A stretch of 64,000 nt of DNA, from NCBI GenBank assembly GCA_012719345.1, contig JAAYAN010000036.1:1-64000 (forward strand), read 5' to 3'. The notes under the pieces are model-generated. The model had not been told where the DNA came from. It was given only the letters and a program-made list of their open reading frames with translations, and ran no database searches. Of the stretch, positions 11,909 to 16,346 are shown one piece after another (the first letter of the stretch is position 1; every line of letters starts with the position of its first letter). The stretch comes from Ignavibacteria bacterium (GTDB taxonomy: Bacteria > Bacteroidota > Ignavibacteria > Ignavibacteriales > Melioribacteraceae). Made by a program: the position numbers and the translations under genes.

Positions 11909-12904
11909 ATGAAAATTTTATTTATCGGCGGAACAGGAAATATAAGTACATCTGTAAGCAGACTATGTATAAGCAAAGGTATCGATTTATATTTGCTGAA
12001 CAGGGGGGTTACAAAAAGAAAGATTGAAGGAGCTAAATACATTAATTGCGATATTAATGATTTTAACAGTGCAACCGAATTACTAAAAAATCACAAATGG
12101 GATTCTGTTGTTAATTGGATAGCATTTACAGAAAATGAAGTGCTTCGTGATTATGAATTATTTTATAAAAGTACAAAGCAATATATTTTTATAAGTTCAG
12201 CATCCTGTTATCAAAAACCTCCGGTAAATCCTTTTATAACAGAATCGACACCTCTGTACAATCCTTTTTGGGAATATTCAAGAAACAAAATTGCCTGCGA
12301 AGAAAGATTGAATGAAAAATACCGGGAAACTGGATTCCCTATAACAATTGTGCGTCCGTCGCACACCTACGATACAGCAATTCCTGTAGCTATAGGGGGA
12401 TGGAACGATTATACAATTATTGACAGAATAAAAAAGGGCAAAAAGGTAATTATTCATGGCGATGGAACTTCTTTATGGACGCTTACACATTCAAAAGATT
12501 TTGCAAAGGGTTTTATCGGTTTAATTGGTAACGGACAATCAATTGGAAATGCTTTTCATATTACTTCCGATGAAGTGTTAAATTGGAATCAAATTTATAA
12601 AATAATTGCCGACTCATTGGAATGTGAATTAAATTATCTGTATATCACGTCCGAGCTTATTTGTAATTTAGAACCATCTCTTACAGGACCACTTTTAGGG
12701 GATAAATCAGCAAGTGTTCTTTTTGATAATTCAAAGATTAAAAGATTTGTCCCGGAATTCTGTGCAACAATCCCTTTTAGTGAAGGAATTAAGGAGACAA
12801 TATTGTGGTTTGAATCTGAAAAAGAAAGAATGATAGTTATAGAAGAAATAAACCAGATGATGGACAGAATAATTCAGACTTACGAAAAGTGTTTTTTAAG
12901 ATAA
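11909..12904 (+). CDS. NAD-dependent epimerase/dehydratase (extended SDR)
   Basis: A 331-residue Rossmann-fold enzyme. The N-terminus has the glycine-rich dinucleotide motif FIGGTGNIS, and the catalytic pair appears as YSRNK (Tyr-x3-Lys) near residue 130. The best match in style is the atypical SDR subgroup that includes nucleotide-sugar epimerases and plant CSP41-like proteins. Substrate unknown. The start has a clear AGGAG 9 bases upstream. It is monocistronic with a strong terminator. Confidence 0.82.
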   Translation: MKILFIGGTGNISTSVSRLCISKGIDLYLLNRGVTKRKIEGAKYINCDINDFNSATELLKNHKWDSVVNWIAFTENEVLRDYELFYKSTKQYIFISSASCYQKPPVNPFITESTPLYNPFWEYSRNKIACEERLNEKYRETGFPITIVRPSHTYDTAIPVAIGGWNDYTIIDRIKKGKKVIIHGDGTSLWTLTHSKDFAKGFIGLIGNGQSIGNAFHITSDEVLNWNQIYKIIADSLECELNYLYITSELICNLEPSLTGPLLGDKSASVLFDNSKIKRFVPEFCATIPFSEGIKETILWFESEKERMIVIEEINQMMDRIIQTYEKCFLR

Positions 12905-13167: not shown

Positions 13168-13713
13168 ATGAATCAAAACTCTGAAATAAATTCTGGCGAA
13201 ATAAGTGACTGCGAAATTATTCGCAGAATAAAAAACGATGATAGCAGTGCTTTTAGGCAGCTATATTTCCGGTATTTTAAAATGATGATCAGTTTTGCCT
13301 GGAACCGGACCGGTTCTACAGATACGGCAAAAGAACATGTACAGGAATTGTTTTGCAGAATATGGATAAAAAGAAGCAATCTTGATCCGGATAAGCCGAT
13401 AAGACCGTATTTATATAAAGCATTAAACAATATTGTAATTAACAGTAACAGGTTATCTTTTAATAAACTAAAATCATTAGACTTTGCAGGGAATGAAAGA
13501 TTTTCGGGCAAAAACGAGGATCAAGATTTACAGATTGATGTTTACGATGCGGTAAATAAGCTTCCCGAAAAAATCAAAAAAGTATTTTTGATGAGCAGAC
13601 TGGATAAATTCAGTTATCAGGAAATTGCCGACATTGAAGAAGTATCAATAAAAACTATCGAAAAAAGAATGTCCAAGGCATTGGTTATTTTGCGTAAAAT
13701 ATTGTTAAAATAA
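13168..13713 (+). CDS. ECF RNA polymerase sigma factor (FecI-like)
   Basis: A 181-residue extracytoplasmic-function sigma factor. Region 2 covers roughly residues 20-85 (YFRYFKMMISFAWNRTGS, then HVQELFCRIW). Region 4 is at the C-terminus, with the helix-turn-helix FSYQEIADIEEVSIKTIEKR. I chose ATG 13168 over the in-frame UUG at 13159. It is followed 13 bases later by a FecR-like anti-sigma gene, the classic partner arrangement. It should drive a small regulon in response to an envelope or nutrient signal. Confidence 0.92.
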   Translation: MNQNSEINSGEISDCEIIRRIKNDDSSAFRQLYFRYFKMMISFAWNRTGSTDTAKEHVQELFCRIWIKRSNLDPDKPIRPYLYKALNNIVINSNRLSFNKLKSLDFAGNERFSGKNEDQDLQIDVYDAVNKLPEKIKKVFLMSRLDKFSYQEIADIEEVSIKTIEKRMSKALVILRKILLK

Positions 13714-13726
13714 TAAGGAGGGTTTT

Positions 13727-14794
13727 TTGCTTAGTAAATGTATTATGAGCAAGAGACGTGGAAAAGGAATGTTGTTTTTTAGAAAAAAAAATCGGGATTT
13801 ATGCTTAAAAGTTTTATCAGGGAATGAAAATCCTGATGAAAGAAAAAAGTTTGAAGAATGGCTAAACTCTTCTGACGAGAATAAAACGCTGTTCGAAAAA
13901 CTTTTGCAAGCATGGAATATTTCTCCCGAAGCAAATCCAAATGATTTTCCGGATGTTGAAAATGAATGGAAAATTTTATATAACCGGCTTGATCTTGATA
14001 ATATTGATAAACAACTTTATAAAGTTAAGAAGGTTCCCGGTGAGACCAAATTGCTGTCTTCAAAAACATTGCGTCCGGTTCTCACCGGTGTTTTTTCTTT
14101 GGTTATTGTTGTTTTTGTGCTGCTGTTTTATTCTGAAAGCAACCAAACTGAAGTCTGGAAAGAAGTTACCGCTTCGGATAAGGAGATACTTAAAATCCAA
14201 TTATCAGAAGGTTCCACTATTATTCTCAATAAAAAAAGCAAAGTTAAATTTCCTGCCGAGTTTGATGAAAACAAAAGGGAAATTAAACTTTTCGGCGAAG
14301 CATTCTTTTCTGTAAAAAAAGACAAAAAACGTCCTTTTATTGTTTTTACTTCAAATGCCAAAACAACGGTTCTTGGTACAAAATTTAATGTTAATGGGCA
14401 CGAAGAAAAAACGGAAGTAATTGTTAAAGAAGGACTTGTTAATCTTTCTCCTCTTTCGGAAGAAAGCGAAGGCATTAACATTAAAGAAAATGAAATCAGC
14501 ATAATTACAAAAGATAACAAAATAAGTCTGCCCGGAAAAATAAACGCTGATTACAGACTTGGCTGGGTAGAAGGTAAACTTATTTTTGATAATACTTCTT
14601 TGGCAAATGCTATTCCGCAGATAGAAAAATTTTACGGAGTAAAGATATCAGCCGACCAAGGAGAATATTTGAATGCAGGCTTTACCGGAACTTTTAAAAA
14701 ACAGAAAATTGATGATGTTTTAGATATAATTTGTCTTGCTTACGAGTTAGATTATATAAAAGAAGGAGATTCATATAAAATAACAAGGAAGTAA
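13727..14794 (+). CDS. FecR-like anti-sigma factor
   Basis: A 355-residue inner-membrane protein. Its cytoplasmic N-terminus of about 115 residues would bind the sigma factor. One transmembrane helix lies near residues 117-138 (SLVIVVFVLLFY). The periplasmic FecR domain contains LSEGSTIILNKKSKVKFPAEF, GEAFFSV and VLGTKFNV, and the C-terminal DUF4974-like region contains FDNTSLANAIPQIEKFYGV. An AAGGAGGG element 4 bases upstream supports the UUG start; ATG 13745 or ATG 13769 are alternatives. In Bacteroidota the next gene is normally a TonB-dependent receptor, which is absent here. Confidence 0.9.
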   Translation: MLSKCIMSKRRGKGMLFFRKKNRDLCLKVLSGNENPDERKKFEEWLNSSDENKTLFEKLLQAWNISPEANPNDFPDVENEWKILYNRLDLDNIDKQLYKVKKVPGETKLLSSKTLRPVLTGVFSLVIVVFVLLFYSESNQTEVWKEVTASDKEILKIQLSEGSTIILNKKSKVKFPAEFDENKREIKLFGEAFFSVKKDKKRPFIVFTSNAKTTVLGTKFNVNGHEEKTEVIVKEGLVNLSPLSEESEGINIKENEISIITKDNKISLPGKINADYRLGWVEGKLIFDNTSLANAIPQIEKFYGVKISADQGEYLNAGFTGTFKKQKIDDVLDIICLAYELDYIKEGDSYKITRK

Positions 14795-14848
14795 GACTTA
14801 GGAGCTTGAGTGATAAATAAATCTTAACATTTAAACTGGAGGTTTAAA

Positions 14849-15667
14849 ATGAAACGATTTGTTAAAATGCTCCTTTTGCTTGTAGTGTTCTTAATTTATT
14901 CTTGTTCCACCGTACCGGATAATTCATTAAGTAAAGAGAATTATATTCTTCCGGTATTAATTGAAAAACCAGAGATGTATTATCCTCCTACAGCAGAGGA
15001 AGGTAAATATTCGGGCAGAGTTAAAGTTCTGCTTACAATTTCGTCCAATGGGAAAGTGGAATCGGCGACAGTTCAGAAATCATCAGGTTTCCCAGAACTG
15101 GATTCATCAGCAATCAATCATACAAAGCAATTTGTTTTTATACCGGGAAAGATTGATAACAGACCGGTATACTCCAGAATTGCTTTCGATATAGTTTTTA
15201 ATTATCAGAACTTATCGGTTTATGCAAGAAATTATAATGAAGATATTGAGAATCTTTATAAATCGCTTGTAAATGCCGATAGTATTGAAAAAATTGCACT
15301 CATAAAGCGTGTTCTAAATGAACATAATAAGTTTATTGAAAAAATGAAAGATCCGCAAAATTTTAATCTTTATATCAGTGCTGTTTTATTGCCGGAGATT
15401 AAAAATGAATGGAGTGATGAATGGAATTCGTGGCCACTTACTTTTCTTTTGTACTATGATTTTCTGAAGCGTTTTAATGAAGGAAAAGAAAACAAAGAAT
15501 TTAAATCACAGATGTTCAAATTATTAGAAAGCGATGTAAAATTTATCAAAAAAAATGTTATAACCGAGCTGTCAGGGATGATTAAAAAGCGAAAACTTCT
15601 TGAAAAAATAAAAACTTTTGTCACTCAGGAATACTCAGCTGAAAAAGCTAATGACTTGGGTTTATAA
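14849..15667 (+). CDS. Lipoprotein with TonB C-terminal-like domain
   Basis: A 272-residue predicted lipoprotein: the signal peptide ends in a lipobox with Cys19 (LIYSCSTV). Residues about 35-115 form a TonB_C-like domain (GRVKVLLTISSNGKVESATVQKSSG, then LDSSAINHTKQFVFIPG), the fold TonB uses to contact receptors. The remaining 150 residues are charged and mostly helical and I do not recognise them. A GGAGG ribosome-binding site precedes the ATG. It follows the anti-sigma gene and lies one base before the next TonB_C gene, so it belongs to the same operon. It has no TonB-type N-terminal transmembrane anchor or proline-rich spacer, so it is not a standard TonB. Confidence 0.78.
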   Translation: MKRFVKMLLLLVVFLIYSCSTVPDNSLSKENYILPVLIEKPEMYYPPTAEEGKYSGRVKVLLTISSNGKVESATVQKSSGFPELDSSAINHTKQFVFIPGKIDNRPVYSRIAFDIVFNYQNLSVYARNYNEDIENLYKSLVNADSIEKIALIKRVLNEHNKFIEKMKDPQNFNLYISAVLLPEIKNEWSDEWNSWPLTFLLYYDFLKRFNEGKENKEFKSQMFKLLESDVKFIKKNVITELSGMIKKRKLLEKIKTFVTQEYSAEKANDLGL

Positions 15668-15668
15668 T

Positions 15669-16346
15669 ATGTTGAGCAAAATTTTTGGCTTATGCCTGAA
15701 ATATTTCAGTTTGATCCTTTTGTTGGAACTCTTCTCTCCGATAATATCCCAAACAAGGATATTAGAAGGGGGAAGAGTTTTTTTTAAATATACAAATAAG
15801 CCCCTTAATGTTATTATTGAAGATTTAAGGGAAAAAACAGGCAAAAACTTTGTTTATAAAAATGATTTATTAAAAAATAAGAATTTAACGTGTAAAATTG
15901 ACAGTGAGTCGATAAAGGATTCTTTTACGAAATTTCTTAAAGGTTTTGAATTATCAATTAAAGAAGTTACCGAAAATACCTTCGTTGTTGTTAAAAATGA
16001 CCTAAAACAAGAAAATATAAGCAAGTCTGTAATTAAACCAAAAAAATTTATTCCGGATGAAGTATATAATTATATAAGTCCGGTTCTTATAAATCGTAAC
16101 AGCGTTTTGTATCCGCAAAGCGCATTAAATGCAAAAATACAAGGAGAGGTAAAAATTCTTGCTTTTGTTACCCAAAGCGGGAAAGTCTCAAAGGTCAGAC
16201 TCAGCAAATCTTCCGGCTATGCTATTTTAGATAATGCCACAATTGATTTTGTTAAAAACAAGGAATTTCTTCCGGCTTATGCAAACGGGAAACCCGTGAG
16301 CGTATGGACATCACTTACTTTTAAGTATAATCTGAAAACCGATTAA
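15669..16346 (+). CDS. STN domain-TonB_C fusion, exported
   Basis: A 225-residue protein with a signal peptide (about residues 1-28). Next comes a short secretin/TonB N-terminal (STN) domain at about 38-102, containing PLNVIIEDLREKTGKNFVYK. The final TonB_C domain runs about 125-225, with QGEVKILAFVTQSGKVSKVRLSKSSGYAILDNATI. STN domains normally sit at the periplasmic N-terminus of FecA-type receptors, where they touch FecR. Here the domain is joined to TonB_C with no beta-barrel. ATG 15669 starts one base after the previous stop. An earlier in-frame start at 15618 would overlap the upstream gene and precede the signal peptide, so I rejected it. Confidence 0.8.
   Translation: MLSKIFGLCLKYFSLILLLELFSPIISQTRILEGGRVFFKYTNKPLNVIIEDLREKTGKNFVYKNDLLKNKNLTCKIDSESIKDSFTKFLKGFELSIKEVTENTFVVVKNDLKQENISKSVIKPKKFIPDEVYNYISPVLINRNSVLYPQSALNAKIQGEVKILAFVTQSGKVSKVRLSKSSGYAILDNATIDFVKNKEFLPAYANGKPVSVWTSLTFKYNLKTD

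Follow-up and report, generated by a model that had tools for sequence, protein, structure and literature searches.

A receptor-free FecI-FecR-type gene unit encoding an STN-TonB_C protein in Ignavibacteriales

Four intact, adjacent open reading frames (ORFs) encode an ECF sigma factor, a FecR-type anti-sigma factor, a TonB_C lipoprotein, and an STN-TonB_C protein at 13168-16346 on the forward strand of the window analyzed here. This window comprises positions 1-64,000 (forward strand) of contig JAAYAN010000036.1 of an Ignavibacteria bacterium (GCA_012719345.1; GTDB lineage Bacteria; Bacteroidota; Ignavibacteria; Ignavibacteriales; Melioribacteraceae). The unit is conserved in related genomes and has no receptor gene, and the receptors of the window's genome carry no detectable STN domain. 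We consider it probable that this is a FecI-FecR-type switch in which the STN domain of the receptor has moved onto a small, probably soluble periplasmic protein that bears a TonB_C domain. The original prediction had described this combination, a sigma/anti-sigma pair with a TonB_C lipoprotein and a 225-residue STN-TonB_C protein but without a receptor, and the gene content agreed with it in every part.

Gene calls and domains of the four-gene unit

The sigma factor (181 aa; 13168..13713, +; alternative start TTG 13159) matched Sigma70_r4_2 (E = 4.6e-13) and r2 (1.5e-6) in Pfam. Its match to TIGR02985 reached 4.6e-32, yet this lies under the cut-off of that model. The anti-sigma factor follows at 13727..14794 (+), starting either at TTG 13727, which has a good ribosome site, or at ATG 13745. 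It has one transmembrane segment, as read, like the start, from the sequence, and it matched FecR (6.7e-20) and FecR_C (5.3e-16) in Pfam. The FecR_C domain, the STN-like end of the protein, spans 14576..14779 (+; PF16344, 2.3e-16 in the whole-genome search) and is expected to be the docking surface for an STN domain. An ECF sigma gene followed by an anti-sigma with both FecR and FecR_C domains is the FecI-FecR arrangement. The intergenic gaps of the unit are 61, 54, and 1 bp, the first one counted with FecR from 13775; a start at TTG 13727 would shorten it.

The lipoprotein (272 aa; 14849..15667, +; TonB_C 9.4e-16) has an N-terminal TonB_C domain (14972..15202, +), found by Pfam and by PDB fold matches, and a helical C-terminal domain. 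Its lipobox Cys19 was invariant in all 11 aligned copies, and a W-PL-FL motif was conserved as well. The predicted model had a pLDDT of 84.8; a PDB fold search with it gave convincing matches to the TonB part alone and none for the helical domain. The named relatives of this protein belong to Melioribacter and other Ignavibacteria-type MAGs. Three genomes (G056, G057, and G058; loci L053, L054, and L055) encoded the lipoprotein without an STN-TonB_C gene beside it, and no FecR was detected in them. This indicates that the lipoprotein has a role of its own and need not be a signaling adapter. At these three loci, it adjoins a protein of about 400 aa without a Pfam match and the same epimerase as in the window. 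Lipoprotein-like TonB_C proteins were also seen at L051:8565-9626, L052:7882-8898, and L056:8111-9163; in the first, Pfam shows a fusion of TonB_C with a ThuA (trehalose utilisation) domain, and genes near the three resemble, by eye, the pectin-degradation genes kduI and kduD.

The last gene encodes the STN-TonB_C protein (225 aa; 15669..16346, +), hereafter the adapter, with a signal peptide, an STN domain (15774..15998, +), and a TonB_C domain (16071..16334, +; Pfam 1.2e-18 and fold matches), and no barrel. Pfam did not match STN in the window copy and reported only FecR_C, below the cut-off (E = 0.0014). In the adapters of two relatives, PF07660 (STN) was above the cut-off, with 2.8e-13 in G310 and 4.4e-7 in G020. 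The predicted model of the window copy has two domains (pLDDT 77, pTM 0.41); it matched TonB C-terminal domains in the PDB and, more weakly (E ~0.008-0.05), the STN-type domains of FpvA, PupB, FecA, and PupR. The assignment of the N-terminal part as an STN domain is thus weak by Pfam in the window copy and firm through the relatives and the predicted fold.

In most copies of the adapter, the N-terminal helix ends in an AQ-type site and, judged by eye, it looks like a cleaved signal peptide. The STN domain comes right after this helix and is followed by a short linker (residues ~110-135). The adapter frame of G034 (L048:8424-9122) has no ATG, GTG, or TTG ahead of the signal peptide, which may reflect a sequence error or an atypical start codon.

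Recurrence and genomic neighborhood

The original prediction proposed looking for the four-gene set in relatives. Eight other genomes (G020, G034, G035, G052, G069, G404, G310, and G425) encode FecR, the lipoprotein, and the STN-TonB_C protein in this order, and six of them also have the sigma gene upstream of the trio (G020, G034, G035, G052, G404, and G310). The contig of G069 ends ahead of the sigma position, and no sigma gene was found beside FecR in G425. Because it recurs in eight other genomes, the arrangement is not due to chance. Sigma and FecR are separated by a 172-aa ORF in G404 and by about 5.4 kb with an 841-aa ORF in G310 (L130:11335-16711); the latter ORF resembles a DNA methyltransferase by eye.

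Among 164 genomes of the order Ignavibacteriales, 10 carried the STN-TonB_C gene, with a patchy spread. In one of them, G435, a contig end cuts the gene so that only its 3' half, coding for TonB_C, is present; two further matches in this survey were TonB_C-only proteins of another type. No full-length STN-TonB_C protein was found outside the order in samples of the class (391 genomes) and the phylum (396 genomes).

In the sigma tree, the sigma factors of the unit formed one group (support 92/97), with a canonical system of G417 as the nearest. The FecR tree did not decide whether the unit forms a clade apart from that system. The correlation of distances between FecR and the STN-TonB_C protein (r = 0.82) was the highest of the six pairs, based on just seven genomes. 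A search upstream of seven sigma genes revealed no common promoter motif, with nothing above shuffles.

Carbohydrate genes frequently surround the unit: a GH26 gene adjoins it in the window, and GH94 and an MFS sugar transporter are encoded nearby in G052. An NAD-dependent epimerase (11909..12904, +; PF01370, 2.7e-19) is a linked neighbor that lies outside the unit; in five further genomes, tblastn found copies of it, 62-74% identical, close to the unit or to the lipoprotein gene. Three genomes (G052, G310, and G425) encode orthologs (~50-64% identical) of one STN-less receptor with CarboxypepD_reg, plug, and barrel domains; its gene lies within about 5 kb of the unit and on the same strand, as does the gene of a T9SS-tailed, beta-helix-like secreted protein. 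The G052 receptor has counterparts in some carriers, but none was found in G034 or G035 and no close one in the genome of the window, and for this reason we rejected one fixed receptor as the partner in all carriers. STN-less receptors and secreted proteins of this kind form a conserved pair (L213:3013-8705, L195:3-5056, L049:11772-17306, and L219:5200-10811) that often adjoins a gene of the GlcNAc 2-epimerase family; the secreted protein of G052 has a CBM35 above the cut-off.

Receptors and STN domains in the genome

No receptor gene was present inside the unit in any of the nine genomes. A full receptor in the operon of a relative would have meant that the window shows a truncated version; none of the relatives found has one, and since the unit is conserved across them, the truncated-receptor reading was rejected. 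Profile searches of the window's genome revealed 25 plug-bearing receptor matches, none of which had an STN domain according to two profiles, PF07660 and one based on the adapter. PF07660 misses the window adapter itself, which limits its sensitivity, and the adapter-based profile compensates for this in part. An STN-bearing TonB-dependent receptor, the third component of FecI-FecR systems, was thus undetected in this genome. As controls, canonical sigma/FecR/STN-receptor or FecR/STN-receptor sets were found in G020, G417, and G425; that of G417 is a related FecI-FecR system in canonical form, whose STN-bearing receptor has 868 aa.

STN matches in the window's genome were limited to the adapter, a 693-aa protein, and very weak ones in a 411-aa ORF and a 68-aa frame. 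FecR_C was matched only in the FecR of the unit and, again, in the 693-aa protein, whose gene belongs to a pilus- or secretion-like cluster. The FecR of the unit is the sole FecR_C-type anti-sigma found in this genome, and with no STN on the receptors and the other STN only in the 693-aa protein, the adapter is its only visible STN partner. The original prediction suggested that signaling could go from another receptor through both TonB_C proteins to FecR. As neither an STN-bearing receptor nor a second FecR_C anti-sigma was detected, input from a separate receptor by way of these proteins is the most parsimonious interpretation, and the receptor-free unit agrees with it; the part assigned to the lipoprotein is less secure, given its occurrence on its own.

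Proposed mechanism and comparison with known systems

In the Fox and Pup systems, signaling domains dock on the anti-sigma (PMC11637429; PMC9249621), and an overproduced free signaling domain, which binds FoxR, shields this anti-sigma from proteolysis (PMC11637429). We propose that the STN domain of the adapter would likewise dock on the STN-like FecR_C domain and control the proteolysis of FecR. The TonB_C domain of the adapter may bind the TonB boxes of STN-less carbohydrate receptors once a substrate exposes them, possibly with the TonB_C lipoprotein as a helper or an anchor. Such binding would change the occupancy of FecR by STN, and lost or changed docking would expose FecR to proteolysis and free the sigma factor. 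The targets of the sigma factor are likely genes for carbohydrate uptake and breakdown. The TonB_C domain of the adapter could also bind a partner other than TonB boxes. A bolder version, which we put forward only tentatively and think rather unlikely, is that one soluble adapter samples TonB-box exposure over many STN-less carbohydrate receptors, with the lipoprotein as a second reader on the outer-membrane side, so that FecR and sigma report overall occupancy instead of one ligand.

The protection of FoxR by a free signaling domain (PMC11637429) also fits an adapter that is a constitutive guard: it would stabilize FecR like a built-in copy of a cleaved receptor domain while its TonB_C tethers it to the cell wall or the lipoprotein, and the signal would be envelope status or proteolysis rather than a receptor. 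In line with this reading, the lipoprotein and adapter genes almost abut in eight of the nine genomes (spacing -4 to 28 bp), and the carriers share no fixed receptor partner; however, the repeated carbohydrate context and the linked receptor in three genomes suggest a substrate signal, and we regard a guard as a minority possibility. It is less likely still that the nearby sugar locus uses the TonB_C proteins as energy transducers or as helpers in transport, with the sigma/anti-sigma pair merely regulating them and the STN domain unused in FecR signaling. The lipoprotein does occur beside similar carbohydrate genes in the three genomes with neither an adjacent adapter nor a detectable FecR. 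The adapter sequence, in contrast, lacks the proline-rich spacer, and probably also the inner-membrane anchor, that precede the C-terminal domain (CTD) of TonB energy transducers; the missing spacer and the helix resembling a cleaved signal peptide make coupling to ExbBD unlikely, and every intact adapter copy found retains its STN domain. That the unit is decaying after a canonical system lost its receptor, a view for which the related system of G417 with its STN-bearing receptor might speak, is largely refuted and very improbable, as the genes are intact and co-linear in several genera, with pairwise identities of 24-59%, even around insertions.

The preferred reading, an adapter that carries the STN of a receptor, has a precedent, although the arrangement had been described as unrecognized in the original prediction. 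VreA, of the PUMA3 system of Pseudomonas aeruginosa, combines an STN domain with a TonB/TolA-like part, and its authors proposed the same adapter role in 2009 (PMC2729926). Both proteins are short, have a signal peptide (judged by eye in the adapter), an STN domain, and a TonB or TonB/TolA-like CTD without a barrel, and are encoded with an ECF sigma factor and a FecR-like anti-sigma. The gene order differs (vreA-vreI-vreR versus sigma-FecR-lipoprotein-adapter), and the unit described here has an extra TonB_C lipoprotein, making four genes, a TonB_C domain directly found by Pfam, and a carbohydrate context in Ignavibacteria-type genomes. Judged by architecture, the unit may work like VreA/VreR/VreI. 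The role is unproven even for VreA, because no change was seen on deleting vreA under phosphate starvation (PMC4971064). A search for VreA-like proteins in plasmid records gave matches to the TonB part only; the two regions inspected had ordinary TonB-type genes with proline-rich spacers and were rejected.

The unit shares with FecI-FecR-FecA and FoxI-FoxR-FoxA an ECF sigma, an anti-sigma with an STN-like C-terminal domain, and a separate STN domain, but here the STN lies outside an outer-membrane receptor, for which the unit has no gene. The signaling domain cleaved from FoxA (PMC11637429) offers another parallel, a detached STN acting on the anti-sigma in the periplasm, as we propose here; in that case, receptor proteolysis was proposed as the source of the domain, whereas the adapter has its own gene and is fused to TonB_C.

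The mechanism of VreA has been in question since 2009, and the unit provides another case in a distant lineage, where canonical TonB_C domains, a constant lipoprotein neighbor, and links to carbohydrate-use genes are new with respect to VreA. Because it is the only detectable FecR_C system of its genome and no receptor there has a detectable STN, the role of the adapter is not masked by other systems. If the proposed mechanism is true, cell-surface signaling would be separable from a dedicated receptor, and TonB_C domains would be able to serve as sensors instead of motors.
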